Below, in pieces: positions 9,462 to 15,824 of a DNA stretch of 45,572 bases (position 1 is the first letter of the stretch; the number at the start of each line of letters is the position of its first letter). The translations under genes were made by a program, and so were the position numbers. This DNA comes from a bacterium GBS-1. GTDB lineage: Bacteria; Synergistota; GBS-1. The stretch spans positions 1 to 45,572 of the forward strand of contig LEKQ01000010.1 of NCBI GenBank assembly GCA_001443005.1. Direction: 5' to 3'. The notes below the pieces were generated by a model. It saw nothing but the letters and a program-made list of their open reading frames with translations. It searched no databases and was not told the DNA's origin.

Positions 9462-11213
9462 TCACCCGGAAGTAGGAAATATGGGAAACTCCACACTTAA
9501 AACTACCTCTTCATCGGAGCTCTCCCTAAAACTAAAGCCTCCACCGCATCTTTTAACTATATCCTCAATCATAGTTAAAGCTACGCTATCTTCTTTAAGC
9601 TTTCCCTTCATGCAGAGCTCCATCGAGACAACTGCCTTATCCCTCACATAGGATGTCCTAATCCTTAACGCTCTTCCATCATAGGCCATCAAGATAAGGG
9701 TTAAAAGGAGCTCCTTAAGGTCAGAAGGTTTAACATAAGGCAAGGGAAGTCTTTCATCGAGATCAAGCTCAAGTCTATCAAGACCCAAAAGATCCTTGAT
9801 CTCCAAGATGAGCCCATTCAGGTCAGCTCTCCTTTTCTCCTCACGAGCTTCATCGAAGTCAAAAAGAAACTCCCTAAAGCGATTAAAATCCTTAGCTTTA
9901 AAGAGAAGCTTTCCTACAATAAAGTTTCTCCAGCTTTCGCGAAGCATCCTCTCAATGGTGCTCTTCTCGGTAAAATCACAACCTAAAAGTAGATGTCTAC
10001 CCTCGCCCAACGAGGTCATCAAAAAGAAATAAACGCGGTCACCAAGCCTGATTTCCCCCTTGCGTTGGTTAATCAAGTTTCCAAGTTCGTCCTCTGGTAA
10101 AAGCTCCTTCAAGCTTTTACCGACCATCTCTTCCGCCGTTAAGGGTAGCTTGTCCGTCTTACCACTGAATCTCAAGACCTCAAAGGCATCGTTAAGCTCT
10201 ATTAAAATGCCAGGGTAGCTCTTCCTAAACTCCTCAAAGGAATCCTTAACCGAGGACCCGCTCTCACCATGCTCTTTAGGCTCCTCAAGCTCCTCCACAA
10301 CTTCCTTTAAAGCCCGATCACGAGCCTCATCTTTCCTTCTCCCCCAGGGAAGAGGGACCACAAATGAGAATAAGCCTGCAAGCGAGATCACCAGAAACTT
10401 AACCATAGCCAAAGGGTATTTCACCTTCCCTAAGAGAAAGTCCTGAGCCGCGTATAGCAGTATATACCAGGGCTCATCCCTCTCAACAGATATCATCCTA
10501 TAAAGAACCAGGGTCTTCACCCCTCCGAGGTCGATAACTTTCTTCCCCTCCTTGCCTAAGTCACTTAAAAGGTGAGCCGTGATCCTATCTCCCCAGACAA
10601 CGCCATCTTTACCCCTCAAGACCGACATATTCCAGAGAGAACCAAAAGGCTCATGCATCCTTTTAAAATTATCAACCATCATACCGGGATCAAGGAGATA
10701 AAACAGAACCCCTCTGAAGCTTCTACCTCTATCGAAAAGCGGAGCATATAGACCTATAAAACTCCTCTCCCCAAGGCGTAAGGGAAAGTCCATAACCAAG
10801 CCTATGGGCCCAGCTTTAATGAGCTTGAAGAAGGGCGCTTCAGCCACCGATTTCCCCTTTAAGGTAGGCTCATCAGGATAGATCTCAAGGATTGTGCCAT
10901 CCCTTCCGATAAGGCCACTCATAGAAACGAAAGTCCCCCGAGTCTCATGAAGACCACGTAAGCTATCGCTTAACTCCTCATCGCCAAGGTCACCTAGCAA
11001 GGAGAGCTTGCTTAGAGCGTAAAGCGTGGATTTAAGGCTAAAGACCTCTTCCTCAAGATACCTACACAGCGCGTTTCTTAGGGCCAATCCCTTTTTAACT
11101 TCATCGTCTATAAGGCTATCCTCAAGCCTCTCAATCAAGTAAAGAGCCAGTGATCCTAAAAGGATCACAACCCCTAAAATTAACACCTTCAACTTAAGGC
11201 TCCTAACTATCAT
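9462..11213 (-). CDS. Membrane sensor resembling a histidine kinase without catalytic residues
   Basis: A 583-residue two-helix membrane protein. After a first membrane helix (about residues 8-26) comes an extracytoplasmic double-Cache-like domain (IGRDGTILEIYPDEPTLKGK, GVLFYLLDPGMM), a second helix near 270-290, a charged linker and a PAS-like segment with MVGKSLKELLP. The C-terminal region has the shape of a kinase ATPase domain (ALTMIEDIVKRCGGGFSFRE, then VVLSVEFP), but the phospho-accepting His is not visible, the N-box Asn is replaced in LLLTLILMAYDG, and no DxGxG or GxGL motif is present. It overlaps the sigma factor gene by 11 bases, so it may control that sigma factor. The function is inferred, not established. 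Confidence 0.75.
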   Translation of the reverse strand: MIVRSLKLKVLILGVVILLGSLALYLIERLEDSLIDDEVKKGLALRNALCRYLEEEVFSLKSTLYALSKLSLLGDLGDEELSDSLRGLHETRGTFVSMSGLIGRDGTILEIYPDEPTLKGKSVAEAPFFKLIKAGPIGLVMDFPLRLGERSFIGLYAPLFDRGRSFRGVLFYLLDPGMMVDNFKRMHEPFGSLWNMSVLRGKDGVVWGDRITAHLLSDLGKEGKKVIDLGGVKTLVLYRMISVERDEPWYILLYAAQDFLLGKVKYPLAMVKFLVISLAGLFSFVVPLPWGRRKDEARDRALKEVVEELEEPKEHGESGSSVKDSFEEFRKSYPGILIELNDAFEVLRFSGKTDKLPLTAEEMVGKSLKELLPEDELGNLINQRKGEIRLGDRVYFFLMTSLGEGRHLLLGCDFTEKSTIERMLRESWRNFIVGKLLFKAKDFNRFREFLFDFDEAREEKRRADLNGLILEIKDLLGLDRLELDLDERLPLPYVKPSDLKELLLTLILMAYDGRALRIRTSYVRDKAVVSMELCMKGKLKEDSVALTMIEDIVKRCGGGFSFRESSDEEVVLSVEFPIFPTSG

Positions 11214-11700
11214 GGGCGCTCCTGAGCTTTTCCACCAACCTCCTTCGCCTTAGATTTACCCAGCTTCTGGATTTTCCCATTATCCTCGATATATTTTCGT
11301 CATTATACCCCCAAAGGTAATAAAGCTCAAGTAGACGTCTGTCCTCATCAGACAAGGGTATATCAACGAGGTCGTTCGCTAAAGGGGGCTCAGAGGGCAG
11401 TTCATCGCTTAAGATAACCCCTTTCTTCCAGTTAAGCTCCTTGAGCCAATAGCTTCTGATGTGCGCTTCCAAGCTTCCTTTGATATACCCTTCAAGGCGG
11501 ACCTTCCCTGCCCTATATCTGCGTATAAGCTTTATAAGCGTGAGATATCCTTCCTGCCTCAAATCCTCATAGGAGCCACCTTTAAGGGAATATCTACGCG
11601 CAATAGATTCAACCAAGGGACGAAAACTAAAAACCAGATCCTTTAAGATCTCCTCACCTATACTCTCCCCTGAGAGCAGAGACTCAAAGGGCAACCCCAT
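11203..11700 (-). CDS. Small sigma-70 family factor
   Basis: A two-domain alternative sigma factor of about 165 residues. Region 2 is visible as LVESIARRYSLKGG followed by EDLRQEGYLTLIKLIRRYRA, and region 4 as LSDEDRRLLELYYLWGYND followed by ISRIMGKSRSWVNLRRRRL, a helix-turn-helix for the -35 element. Region 3 is missing. The sequence is not a typical ECF factor; region 2 looks closer to small SigF- or BotR-like forms. The start is uncertain: ATG 11700 follows GAGAGGTG too closely, and TTG 11694 has better spacing; GTG 11703 is a third option. All candidate starts lie within or next to an inverted repeat arm. The 3' end overlaps the pseudokinase gene, its probable partner. Confidence 0.82.
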   Translation of the reverse strand: MGLPFESLLSGESIGEEILKDLVFSFRPLVESIARRYSLKGGSYEDLRQEGYLTLIKLIRRYRAGKVRLEGYIKGSLEAHIRSYWLKELNWKKGVILSDELPSEPPLANDLVDIPLSDEDRRLLELYYLWGYNDENISRIMGKSRSWVNLRRRRLVEKLRSAHDS

Positions 11701-11758
11701 CACCTCTCTATAGTAAAAATTTTTACTATAGAATAATAAATAGGGTTGCCCTTTTCAA
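11686..11758 (-). promoter_or_regulatory. Promoter with nested palindromes before the sigma factor gene
   Basis: On the minus strand TTGAAA (11758-11753), 17 bases and TATTCT (11735-11730) form a plausible promoter. A perfect 24-base palindrome (11708-11731; half-site CTATAGTAAAAA) overlaps the end of the -10 box and the expected start point near 11723. Around it lies a second inverted repeat with 15-base arms, 11740-11754 and 11686-11700, differing at one position. The inner arm of the first lies between -35 and -10; the other covers the first five codons of the sigma gene. The layout fits a repressor operator, an RNA hairpin hiding the start codon, or a terminator of the upstream DUF3084 gene. 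Confidence 0.65.
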
Positions 11759-12768
11759 ACTTCGCTTATTTTAAAATAGACCTCTAAAGGACCAATTGTG
11801 TATATATCCTTTTTGGTAATCACCTCTAAACGTACGCTTTTGCCTATTTCCTTTATCTGATTTAGCGTTTCATAAAACTCAGCAGCACTTATCACACCTA
11901 TTCTATGATAAAGAGGCTCAGGCAATACCCCCTTTTCCACAGCTATCTCCCTAACCTTGCTTAATACTAGCGTTAACCTATATTCTAACTGATCCTCAGG
12001 CAAGGAACCATCTATCTCCGTTACATATATTCGCTCATCCTTCTTAAAAACGAGCTTGTTGGGATGAACCTCTATTATCACGGGAACCCACTCTCCCACC
12101 ACCACATTAGCTGCCGCTATAAGCCTAACCACCGCCTCATCCTTTACACCCTTCAAAAGGGATATTGCCTTATTTAAATCATCAGGGTGAACTAAGAGAG
12201 CCTTCATGTCCTTAAGGGGCGGCTCAGCTCCCCTTTCCCTCACTATAGGATCAGCCTCACCTAACAACTTCTCCAGCTCTCCTTCGAGGTATTTCTCGTC
12301 CCCTTTCACCTTCACAATCTTCTGATAGACCAACTCCCCTGCCCTATAAATTATTGCCCTTCCCCTTATTGCTGATATGCTAAGATCTAATCGCCTAGCT
12401 ATCTCTCTCAACTGCGCAATCCTATCCTCAAGCTCCTTGAGCTTGGCGGTCTTTTCCTCAAGCTCAGAGCTCTTCTCTTTAAGCATGTCTGATAATATCT
12501 TTATCTCCTCCTGAAGGCTCCTCATACCCAAAAGCGCCCTCTGTACTGAAGGAATGGTGAAGGATAAAACCGTCATAGTGACGATCGCAACGGCAAGGCC
12601 GGTAAATATGGTTATCAAGCTCGTGGTATGCCTCGGCCTTAAACCCCAAAGGGTCAGCTTCTTCTTTCCCAGCTTCCAACCAACCTTATCCCCAACGAAA
12701 GCTATAAAGGCGCTTAGGCCAATGATTATAAAAAAAAGCGGCCAATTTAGCTCCTTAAAAAATCCCAT
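11755..12768 (-). CDS. DUF3084 membrane protein
   Basis: A 337-residue protein of the DUF3084 family, function unknown. Two membrane helices near the N terminus (about residues 9-25 and 50-72) flank the family block GWKLGKKKLTLWGLRPRHTT. A coiled coil follows (about 83-125, ILSDMLKEKSSELEEKTAKL), then a soluble domain rich in beta strands with GRAIIYRAGELVYQKIV. The architecture of membrane anchor plus coiled coil suggests a structural or envelope role, which is inference. GGAGGGATAAG precedes the ATG. The gene follows bactofilin, separated by a parS site, and its stop codon abuts the palindromic promoter of the sigma factor gene. Confidence 0.86.
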   Translation of the reverse strand: MGFFKELNWPLFFIIIGLSAFIAFVGDKVGWKLGKKKLTLWGLRPRHTTSLITIFTGLAVAIVTMTVLSFTIPSVQRALLGMRSLQEEIKILSDMLKEKSSELEEKTAKLKELEDRIAQLREIARRLDLSISAIRGRAIIYRAGELVYQKIVKVKGDEKYLEGELEKLLGEADPIVRERGAEPPLKDMKALLVHPDDLNKAISLLKGVKDEAVVRLIAAANVVVGEWVPVIIEVHPNKLVFKKDERIYVTEIDGSLPEDQLEYRLTLVLSKVREIAVEKGVLPEPLYHRIGVISAAEFYETLNQIKEIGKSVRLEVITKKDIYTIGPLEVYFKISEV

Positions 12769-12788
12769 CTTATCCCTCCCGTTCTAAA

Positions 12789-12804
12789 TGTTCCACGTGG
12801 AACA
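12789..12804. promoter_or_regulatory. parS: parS centromere site
   Basis: TGTTCCACGTGGAACA, a perfect 16-base palindrome matching the bacterial parS consensus TGTTNCACGTGNAACA. It lies between the bactofilin and DUF3084 genes and would load the ParB encoded 0.6 kb away. Confidence 0.95.
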
Positions 12805-12839
12805 TAAACCCCATCACCATAAACTCTTGCCACAGCTTA

Positions 12840-13372: not shown

Positions 13373-14197
13373 TTATCTTGAGGAGAAAATCTCCTCAAGA
13401 GATCGAAGAAAGCTTTCCATCTCGTCTTCATCGTCAAATAGCACCTCTACGCTATTAACAGCCCCTCTTTTTACTCTAACCCTAACGTGGTAGAGTTCCG
13501 CAAATCTCTTTTCCGCTTCTTTGTCTCTTTCAACTGCTCTTCCCCTCTTAGAGACCTCCCTCTCAACATCTCTAACTGAAAGGGAATGCTCCAAGATTTC
13601 CTTTGCTACCCTTCTTTGTTCCTCAGGATCATCAAGAGAAAGTAAAGCCCTTGCATGTCCCATCGTTAAGCGCCCATCCGAAACCATCTCCTGGATATCT
13701 TCTGGAAGTTTCAAGAGCCTGAGAAGATTTGCAACGGTTGATCTCTTCTTACCTATCTTATCAGCAACCTCTTCCTGCGTTAAGCCAAAGCTTTCCATAA
13801 GCTTCCTTATAGCATAAGCAGCCTCTATTGGGTTCAAATCCTCCCTCTGCAGATTCTCTATTAGGGCATACTCCAGTAGCTCCTCATCCGATACCTCCTT
13901 GACCAGAGCAGGGATCTTCTGTAGGCCCGCTTTCTTCGCTGCACGATATCTCCTTTCTCCTGCTATTATCTCATACCCCTTTTCCACTTTACGAACCACA
14001 ATGGGCTGAAGGAGCCCATGTTGCTTTATCGAAAGAGCAAGCTCCTCCAAGGAGTCTTCATTCATAGTCTGGCGAGGTTGATAAGGGTTAGGAGCCACCT
14101 CGTCTAAGGATATTTCCATAAGCTTTTCCTTTCCAGGAACCGAGGGGATAAGGGCTTCTAACCCCCTACCCAACCCCCCTTTAGACTTAGGGGGCAT
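13373..14197 (-). CDS. parB: Chromosome partitioning protein ParB (Spo0J)
   Basis: The CTP-dependent DNA clamp that binds parS, spreads on DNA and works with ParA and SMC in origin segregation. The N terminus GGLGRGLEALIPS is typical of chromosomal ParB and carries the segment that stimulates ParA. CTP-binding motifs GYEIIAGERRYRAAKKAGL and ALIENLQREDLNPIEAA are intact. The parS-reading helix-turn-helix is EEVADKIGKKRSTVANLLRL. Key specificity positions (Arg in KKRST, Gly in TMGHARA) fit parS rather than Noc sites. Length 274 is usual. It lies three bases after parA and is followed by bactofilin. Two parS sites are in the window. Confidence 0.96.
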   Translation of the reverse strand: MPPKSKGGLGRGLEALIPSVPGKEKLMEISLDEVAPNPYQPRQTMNEDSLEELALSIKQHGLLQPIVVRKVEKGYEIIAGERRYRAAKKAGLQKIPALVKEVSDEELLEYALIENLQREDLNPIEAAYAIRKLMESFGLTQEEVADKIGKKRSTVANLLRLLKLPEDIQEMVSDGRLTMGHARALLSLDDPEEQRRVAKEILEHSLSVRDVEREVSKRGRAVERDKEAEKRFAELYHVRVRVKRGAVNSVEVLFDDEDEMESFLRSLEEIFSSR

Positions 14198-14200
14198 TAT

Positions 14201-14974
14201 CTATCCTCTCCTTCCCTTAACAAACTCACGTGCCAAGGAGATGTAAGCCTGAGCTCCGTTTGATTGTGGGGCATAGTATATGACCGGCTTCCCATAGCTT
14301 GGTGCCTCGCTTACCCTAACGCTCCTCGGTATTATCGCTTTAAAAACTTTTTCCTTAAAGTAATTCCTAACCTCAGCTGTAACCTGTTGCGCAAGCTTCG
14401 TCCTTGAATCATACATAGTCAATAAAACGCCAAAGATCTCAAGACCAGGATTCAGATATTCCCTTACCAGATCTATGGTTTTTAGGAGCTGTCCCAACCC
14501 CTCAAGGGCGTAATATTCACACTGGATAGGGATTATAACCCCATGAGCCGCGGTTAAAGCGTTTATAGTCAACAATCCCAAAGATGGAGGACAATCCATG
14601 AATATGTAATCATAATTGGAAATTAGGCTTTCCAAAGCCCTCTTAAGGCGTGTTTCACGTGAAACAGTATTAACCAGCTCTATCTCAGCCCCAGCCAGAT
14701 CTATATTTGAAGGCATAACATCCAGATTTTTATATACATTCTTTATTATAGCATCCTCGGCTTTAACTCTCCCAGAGATGACATCGTACAAACTATACTT
14801 CACATCCTCCTTCTCAATCCCTAATCCACTTGTAGCATTCCCCTGAGGATCGACATCAATGAGCAAAACCTTCTTGCCAAAGGAAGCAACTGCAGAAGAG
14901 AGATTAACAGCTGTAGTGCTTTTACCAACGCCACCCTTTTGATTAGCGAGAGCTACCGCCTTGCCAACCTTCAT
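14201..14974 (-). CDS. parA: Chromosome partitioning ATPase ParA (Soj)
   Basis: A deviant Walker-type ATPase that binds DNA non-specifically as an ATP dimer; ParB-parS complexes move along its gradient. In Bacillus the homologue Soj also regulates DnaA. The deviant P-loop is ANQKGGVGKSTTAVNLSS, the Walker A' is LLIDVDPQGNATSGLG, and DYIFMDCPPSLGLLT is the Walker B region. I chose ATG 14974, with AAGAGGTG six bases upstream, over the in-frame GTG at 14983, which overlaps that site. The start overlaps the end of noc, so noc, parA and parB form one operon. A parS site lies inside the coding sequence. Confidence 0.96.
   Translation of the reverse strand: MKVGKAVALANQKGGVGKSTTAVNLSSAVASFGKKVLLIDVDPQGNATSGLGIEKEDVKYSLYDVISGRVKAEDAIIKNVYKNLDVMPSNIDLAGAEIELVNTVSRETRLKRALESLISNYDYIFMDCPPSLGLLTINALTAAHGVIIPIQCEYYALEGLGQLLKTIDLVREYLNPGLEIFGVLLTMYDSRTKLAQQVTAEVRNYFKEKVFKAIIPRSVRVSEAPSYGKPVIYYAPQSNGAQAYISLAREFVKGRRG
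14651..14666. promoter_or_regulatory. parS: parS centromere site inside parA
   Basis: TGTTTCACGTGAAACA, a perfect 16-base palindrome and an exact parS consensus. It encodes the VSRET segment of ParA, a position where parS is also found in other bacteria. Confidence 0.96.
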
Positions 14975-15824
14975 AACCTTCACCTCTTAAGAAAGATATC
15001 CTCAACTCCCCGCGCTCTTCATCCAAAACCACGTTGAAGCTTACACCCTGTTTTTCAAACTTAGAGAGCGTTTTACATATAAAACCATACAAATCTTTCA
15101 GATTTTGGGGTGGCCTGTTGCCCTTATTCTTCATTTCCTGGGAAATTAGACCGAGCATTTTATCGACGAGCTCTTCGGTCTGGCTAACATTAAGCTTCCT
15201 CTGCTCTATCTGCTTTAAAGCCTTCATTATTTCTGTTTCTGAGGGAAGCTTGAGTAAGGCTCGGGCATGCCTCTCTGTTATTGTGCCATTCATTAGTTTC
15301 TCCTGAACTATGACAGGAAGCTTAAGAAGTCTAAGCTTATTTGCTATTGTAGACTGTTTCTTTCCCACCATCTGAGCGATTTCCTCTTGAGTTAAGTCAA
15401 ACTCTTGCATCAGCCTCTTATACCCATAAGCCTCCTCTAGGGGGTTAAGATCGCTTCTTTGTAGGTTCTCTATGAGGGCAAAGGAAAGAGCTTCTTTCTC
15501 CGTGGCCTCTATGACCATAGCAGGAATGAGACTTAATCCCGCGAGTCGAGCAGCTCTCCACCGCCTCTCTCCCGCTATTAGTTCATAGCGTTCCTCGCCA
15601 ATCTCTCTAACTATTATAGGTTGAAGGACTCCTACCTCCTTGATGGAAGAAGCTAACTCCTCCAAAGACTCGGGATCCATATTTTTCCTGGGTTGATAAG
15701 GGTTTAACACAACAGAGTCAATGGGGATCTCTCTAACCTCCTTCTTTTCCTTAGTCTCAGGGGGGTGCGGCAACTGTTCTAAAACTTCCCTCTTCTCCTG
15801 CTCCTTAGATTTTCCAAACCACAA
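14943..15824 (-). CDS. noc: ParB paralogue of the Noc (nucleoid occlusion) type
   Basis: Noc binds its own DNA sites, spreads with CTP and attaches to the membrane, keeping the division ring away from the chromosome. The protein has the ParB core (NPYQPRKNMDPESLEELASS, ERYELIAGERRWRAARLAGL, ALIENLQRSDLNPLEEAYG) and a helix-turn-helix GKKQSTIANKLRLLKLP that matches Bacillus Noc. Gln and Lys in that helix and Arg in ITERHARALLKLP occupy positions reported to switch specificity from parS to Noc sites. The short N terminus MWFGKSKEQ could be a membrane-binding segment. The order rsmG-noc-parA-parB is the Bacillus order. TTG 15824 follows AAGGAGGTGA. A near-consensus Noc site lies within the gene. 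Confidence 0.88.
   Translation of the reverse strand: MWFGKSKEQEKREVLEQLPHPPETKEKKEVREIPIDSVVLNPYQPRKNMDPESLEELASSIKEVGVLQPIIVREIGEERYELIAGERRWRAARLAGLSLIPAMVIEATEKEALSFALIENLQRSDLNPLEEAYGYKRLMQEFDLTQEEIAQMVGKKQSTIANKLRLLKLPVIVQEKLMNGTITERHARALLKLPSETEIMKALKQIEQRKLNVSQTEELVDKMLGLISQEMKNKGNRPPQNLKDLYGFICKTLSKFEKQGVSFNVVLDEERGELRISFLRGEGYEGWQGGSSR
15133..15146. promoter_or_regulatory. Candidate Noc-binding site inside noc
   Basis: ATTTCCTGGGAAAT matches 13 of 14 positions of the Bacillus Noc-binding consensus ATTTCCCGGGAAAT and lies within the noc coding sequence itself. Confidence 0.6.

Follow-up and report, generated by a model that had tools for sequence, protein, structure and literature searches.

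The gap in front of an alternative sigma factor gene of bacterium GBS-1, found in a stretch of 45,572 nt (the window), is best explained as a promoter embedded in an RNA lock against read-through transcription, an explanation that we consider probable. A sigma-A-type promoter (TTGAAA-17-TATTCT) would drive the gene from a predicted start located in the center of a palindrome. Since the promoter spacer is also the 5′ arm of a hairpin, and since the predicted start is the palindrome center, RNA made from this promoter would contain neither the 5′ arm nor the left palindrome half and could not form the hairpin, leaving the Shine-Dalgarno (SD) sequence and the TTG start codon free. RNA reading through from the parA, parB, bactofilin, and DUF3084 genes would carry both arms, and the resulting 31-pair hairpin would bury the SD sequence and the start codon, thereby leading to the synthesis of little sigma factor. 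The alternative sigma factor would thus be kept independent of its housekeeping neighbors.

Promoter, palindrome, and hairpin of the sigma factor gene

The sigma factor gene (positions 11203 to 11694, minus strand) encodes a protein (MPFESL...) that contains sigma-70 regions 2 and 4 and the recognition helix KSRSWVNLRRRRLVEKL. Translation most likely begins at the TTG codon at 11694 rather than at the GTG and ATG codons located 3 and 2 codons upstream, because of the position of the SD sequence GAGGTGAT (11699 to 11706, minus strand), the GAGG core of which is 8 nt from this TTG, and because the relatives also have an SD sequence before a TTG start, the distance being 8 to 10 nt in 4/4 genomes of the family. 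A gene encoding a membrane sensor-like protein of 583 residues (9462 to 11213, minus strand) overlaps the sigma gene at its end and is also located directly after it in the relatives. This protein had no confident Pfam match and is a possible sensor or anti-sigma factor. Immediately upstream of the sigma gene and on the same strand lies the DUF3084 gene (11755 to 12768, minus strand), the proposed source of read-through, beyond which the genes encoding bactofilin, ParB, and ParA are located, again on the strand of the sigma gene. The gap between the DUF3084 and sigma genes is 51 to 60 nt, and no terminator was found between the two genes. Two ParB-family genes (13373 to 14197 and 14943 to 15824) are located near parS-like palindromes, namely, TGTTTCACGTGAAACA within parA (14651 to 14666) and ATGTTCCACGTGGAACAT upstream of the DUF3084 gene (12788 to 12805).

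The predicted promoter comprises a −35 box, TTGAAA (11753 to 11758, minus strand), which overlaps the DUF3084 stop codon, and a −10 box, TATTCT (11730 to 11735, minus strand). Four genomes of the same family were compared, that of the window (G000) and G001, G002, and G003 (bacterium 42_11). The −35 boxes of the four genomes are TTGAAA, TTGAGA, TTGAAG, and TTGAAA, the −10 box is TATTAT in G001, and the spacer is 17 bp throughout, so that TTGA[AG][AG]-17-TATT[CA]T occurs at the same place in 4/4 genomes despite divergence of the spacer. The promoter of the window matches the consensus at 9/12 positions, which is not above the shuffle expectation for the region; placement of a sigma-A-type promoter is therefore supported by conservation and not by the consensus match. 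A reading of this DNA from its sequence only had located one outer arm of an inverted repeat between the two boxes, in agreement with the conserved boxes and with the identity of the 17-bp spacer (11736 to 11752) and the 5′ arm. The same reading had placed a palindrome at the predicted transcription start, and the start that we infer, about 7 nt past the −10 box, is indeed the palindrome center. RNA beginning at the predicted internal promoter, devoid of the 5′ arm, folds weakly.

The palindrome, TCTATAGTAAAAATTTTTACTATAGA, is perfect over 26 bp (11707 to 11732, no strand assigned) and forms the inner stem and the apex of the hairpin. It had been described as a perfect palindrome of 24 bases at 11708 to 11731; the perfect symmetry stands, and the length and coordinates are corrected here. 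Based on base composition, perfect palindromes of 26 bp are expected by chance at a frequency of 0.0007 per window and 0.03 per 1.81-Mb genome, and the second-longest palindrome within the window is an 18-bp, parS-like sequence. Among 151 genomes of the phylum searched with ≤3 mismatches, the full palindrome was present in a single copy per genome and was found elsewhere only at the G002 ortholog. Its identification as parS (a ParB site, typified by the TGTTTCACGTGAAACA-like 16-mer) was rejected, since the sequence differs and parS-like sites are located elsewhere in the window. A loose likeness to the phage T7 promoter was observed for TAAAAATTTTTACTATAG. The outer repeat has 15-base arms (11686 to 11700 and 11740 to 11754) that are 93% complementary, with one differing position, as previously described; this odd position forms a U.G pair on the mRNA strand.

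The complete mRNA hairpin (11686 to 11754, minus strand) contains 31 pairs, including 5 G.U pairs, and its formation requires a transcription start upstream of about 11754. The 5′ outer arm (11736 to 11754, minus strand), which is essentially the promoter spacer, is free in sequence and keeps its complementarity to the 3′ outer arm (11686 to 11704, minus strand). Since translation most likely begins at 11694, this 3′ arm extends over the end of the SD sequence, the TTG, and roughly the next two codons, and not over the first five codons of the sigma gene, as had been assumed. The SD sequence is held by the G+C-rich outer stem and not by the A/U-rich apex. Folding of an 81-nt region as gene-strand RNA gave −40.1 kcal/mol (z of −8.3), a value attained by 0/200 shuffles. 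This is the strongest start-region fold among 39 genes of the window that were tested, the runner-up containing an ordinary intrinsic terminator. Composition-preserving shuffles, which correct for the cheap pairing of a C/T-rich spacer with a G-rich SD sequence, were restricted to the 17-nt spacer and attained the native energy in 0, 0, 2, and 6 of 2,000 cases in the four genomes; the hairpin signal of the sigma gene thus survives the composition correction in the family of the window. An Rfam search of the hairpin returned sub-threshold matches to generic hairpins and none at the gathering score.

Conservation of the hairpin and alternative explanations

The outer arms diverge in sequence yet stay complementary in 4/4 genomes of the family. 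The sequence-only reading had suggested looking for compensatory changes of the arms in related genomes, and such changes were found. In G002 and G003, which belong to the same genus, the outer stem, compared over its 12 inner pairs, shows 2 two-sided changes (A-U to C-G), 2 one-sided changes, and no broken pair. Chimeras combining the 5′ arm of one genome with the 3′ arm of another mostly gave much weaker folds. The energies calculated at 37°C were −40.1 (G000), −43.3 (G002), −35.9 (G003), and −23.0 (G001) kcal/mol; in G001, in which the hairpin is weaker, part of the sigma gene is lost in an assembly gap. Together, covariation, chimera folds, and spacer shuffles support the existence of one RNA hairpin over the SD sequence and the conserved TTG, the covariation and conservation resting on four genomes, one of which (G003) is split over two contig ends. 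Among the possibilities raised from the sequence, an mRNA fold that conceals the start codon in transcripts coming from upstream is thus the best-supported one.

Conservation of the inner palindrome is of a different kind. The 26-mer is identical in G000, G002 (L006), and G003, although the sigma proteins of these three genomes are only about 66% identical. The G003 contigs break inside the palindrome, and two overlapping contig ends (L040 and L004/L007) yield the identical 26-mer. G001 (L041) has the variant TATAGTGAAAATTTTACTATA, a 21-nt dyad form that is one base shorter and in which the changed position forms a G.U pair in RNA. The palindrome is therefore conserved in close relatives. Its 3′ half corresponds to a 17-nt element, AAAAATTTTTACTATAG (11708 to 11724, minus strand), and a search of the genome for this half-site, also proposed in the sequence-only reading, identified exactly one further site, located 50 nt 5′ of an operon encoding DUF1659, DUF2922, an M15 peptidase, and YvrJ (G000:C5:64471). 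The element upstream of DUF1659 is exact in three genomes (G000, G002, and G003), and in G001 it differs at 2 positions. A wider regulon was rejected, since weak matches are at background level (33 matches with ≤3 mismatches in G000 versus 52 for the reversed pattern). A third site in G001 (L069) was also rejected, since it is absent from the second G001 copy and from the G000 and G002 orthologs; AATATTTTTACTATAG is found there (L069:110-170, G001 C79), directly 5′ of a gene encoding an inhibitor-like secreted protein.

The symmetry and frozen sequence of the inner 26 bp exceed the needs of an RNA stem and make an additional role as DNA very probable, because the sequence and not merely the pairing is frozen and because one half recurs at a probable target operon. 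The palindrome may be a protein site, in view of this recurrence 5′ of a second operon. In its full form, this explanation holds that a dimeric regulator, either a repressor or an activator, occupies the dyad at the sigma gene start and the half-site at the DUF1659 operon. It accounts for a perfect zero-loop symmetry conserved at a promoter, for the identity of 26 bp between genomes with diverged sigma proteins, and for the conservation of the half-site before the other operon. However, it leaves the covarying outer arms unexplained, and the symmetry of the shorter G001 dyad is broken by the very change that preserves pairing in RNA. In addition, only half of the dyad is present at the DUF1659 operon, no full dyad was found at other regulated promoters in the 151 genomes, and no candidate binding protein was found. 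As a replacement for the RNA lock, an operator is accordingly unlikely, although it is the alternative that survives best. A repressor with two sites in the strict sense, as initially envisaged, is not supported, since the outer repeat keeps its complementarity and not its sequence and is thus not a protein site; this leaves the inner palindrome as the candidate.

The RNA thermometers known from rpoH and other sigma genes also hold the SD sequence and start codon within a hairpin. Control by a thermometer or, in a riboswitch-like manner, by a trans-acting factor would imply that every transcript carries the hairpin, which is then opened by heat or by the factor. The location of the SD sequence and start codon of the sigma gene within a hairpin with an A/U-rich apex is consistent with such control. 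Unlike in rpoH-type thermometers, the hairpin encloses conserved promoter boxes, and the main transcript would consequently be devoid of the 5′ arm. The G000 hairpin is moreover predicted to remain folded when hot, with −24 kcal/mol at 60°C and −17.6 kcal/mol at 70°C, and its G+C-rich stem is the part that holds the SD sequence. The temperature sensitivity suggested earlier is conceivable for this structure but is not favored, and we regard this type of control as improbable. Even less probable is a hairpin acting mainly as a 3′ mRNA stabilizer or attenuator for the upstream operon, with sigma expression as a by-product. The hairpin does start right at the DUF3084 stop codon, but the absence of a U-run indicates that it is no intrinsic terminator, and the 3′ arm follows the SD sequence and TTG of the sigma gene, the position of which shifts between genomes along with the pairing. 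Finally, a cruciform (another early proposal), a mobile-element remnant, or chance, to which the palindrome and the G003 assembly break at exactly this place might point, is hardly credible in view of the single full copy per genome, the conserved position, the compensatory changes, and the G.U pairs, which are more readily explained by RNA made from one strand than by a DNA cruciform.

The shared element and the sigma factor family in the phylum

At the DUF1659 operon, AAAAATTTTTACTATAG is located near a −35 position, with the invariant sequence CATCTATAT about 22 nt past it. The shared site is real, and it may act differently at the operon and at the sigma gene, because it has a −35-like placement at the former and a +1 placement at the latter. 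Both loci would be tied together by one factor that binds the element and that might be the sigma holoenzyme. The DUF1659-DUF2922-M15 peptidase-YvrJ operon is a probable target of the sigma factor; the sigma gene and yvrJ are at separate loci in the genome of the window. The SD sequence of the operon (L059-L062) is located in a hairpin with CATCTATAT as its invariant apex in each of the four family genomes, with pairing that is mostly no better than predicted from base composition.

Profile searches detected DUF2922 in 112/151 genomes of the phylum. A single-sequence search had suggested that DUF1659 and the sigma factor co-occur solely in the family of the window; this was wrong, since the profile searches showed that DUF1659 and DUF2922 are widespread. 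These proteins and YvrJ are functionally uncharacterized and barely mentioned in the open literature searched. The first 16 loci, which were picked because a sigma match lay near DUF2922, all (16/16) had a sigma homolog in one operon with DUF2922, YvrJ, and M15. In other families, the sigma gene was inside the operon at 38 of 76 DUF2922 loci, with the order DUF1659-DUF2922-YvrJ-M15-sigma in 28, and the sigma and yvrJ genes shared an operon at 36/76 loci. The link between the sigma factor and this regulon is strong.

The sigma-bearing operons (L107-L122 and L127-L186) have the promoter TTTGTA-N18-CACTcTTAta, a new-looking motif. A relaxed form of this pattern was present in 28/38 sigma-bearing versus 5/36 sigma-less operons (Fisher, 2e-7, an optimistic value, as for all the motif tests, since related genomes were counted separately). 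Spacers of 18 were counted in 24 cases, and spacers of 17 or 19 in none. Conversely, TTGACA/TATAAT promoters were found in 19/36 sigma-less and 0/38 sigma-bearing operons. Operons reduced to DUF1659-DUF2922 and lacking the sigma gene (L157, L162-L171, and L176-L186) mostly have such ordinary promoters and provide a natural control for promoter switching upon sigma loss. The motif accompanies a [TS]QQ recognition helix (28/31 versus 1/7, p of 2e-4), with which it covaries as TQQAVS in region 4 of the sigma factor, the single exception being an open reading frame with an unread helix.

The family of the window has the helix SRSWVN (SRSWVNLRRR instead of TQQAVSARL) and is devoid of the TTTGTA-N18-CACTcTTAta motif. 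The phylum promoter profile gave unconvincing scores on the DUF1659 and sigma promoters of this family, the lone low p value (G003 sigma gene) stemming from a match unrelated to the boxes. The sigma factor has apparently changed its −35 preference in this family, and its gene would have left a self-regulated operon and gained a sigma-A-type promoter and an RNA lock. The hairpin architecture was rejected as a phylum-wide rule: at 26 promoters of other families, spacer shuffles detected complementarity between the spacer and the SD sequence in 5 cases (p<0.05; median z of −0.3) and resembled sigma-less controls per site.

The palindrome could also be an inverted pair of new −35-type elements read by the altered sigma factor of this family, a rather unlikely extension of these observations. 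If so, the sigma holoenzyme would activate the DUF1659 operon and, at its own gene, block the sigma-A start. The 26 bp would then be an RNA lock, a transcription start, and an autorepressor site, a triple role that would have arisen after the sigma gene left its ancestral self-activating operon.

Comparison with known systems

In transposase genes of the IS10 type, a fold-back inverted repeat hides the start region in read-through RNA only. Unlike this repeat, the element of the window is present in a single copy and is not mobile.

In phage T4, the hairpin structure of the lysozyme gene (e) lowers lysozyme synthesis about 100-fold (PMC3014915). The leaders of e, soc, 49, and I-TevI have a promoter in or beside a hairpin that hides the ribosome-binding site, so that the long transcripts are silent and the RNA from the internal promoter is devoid of the 5′ arm (PMC3014915). 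As in gene e, the SD sequence and start codon of the window's sigma gene are sequestered in a stable predicted hairpin, the predicted promoter lies inside this hairpin, and the 5′ arm would be missing from its RNA in the four genomes. Maintenance of the structure by compensatory change was also observed here. Unlike gene e, the gene is a chromosomal sigma gene, its promoter resembles those of sigma-A and not phage late promoters, its silencing would follow from the predicted fold, and the hairpin apex consists of a perfect DNA palindrome, part of which recurs at another operon.

The group V clostridial sigma factors TcdR and BotR are small and divergent and contain regions 2 and 4 (PMC8103513). 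The sigma factor of the window shares these features; unlike TcdR and BotR, it is found without toxin genes, and its relatives are associated with the TTTGTA-N18-CACTcTTAta motif. The alternative sigma factor SigO-RsoA of Bacillus subtilis drives yvrJ and its own operon (PMC8103513). As for SigO, the sigma factor is genetically linked to YvrJ elsewhere in the phylum, and this likeness supports, by analogy, a functional kinship of the family. Unlike SigO-RsoA, with its regions 2 and 4 split over two subunits, the sigma factor of the window is a single protein containing both, and the operon contains DUF1659, DUF2922, and the M15 peptidase. Compared to the shared autoregulated promoter of SigO, the 17-nt element is common to the sigma and yvrJ loci at different positions relative to the promoters.

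For the widespread sigma factor family attached to DUF1659, DUF2922, and YvrJ, the analysis provides a testable promoter motif and a recognition-helix rule. If the RNA lock is right, the promoter, its spacer, and the ribosome-binding site would be parts of one fold, and a cellular bacterium would use the trick of T4 lysozyme for insulating an alternative sigma factor from read-through of chromosome-partition genes.
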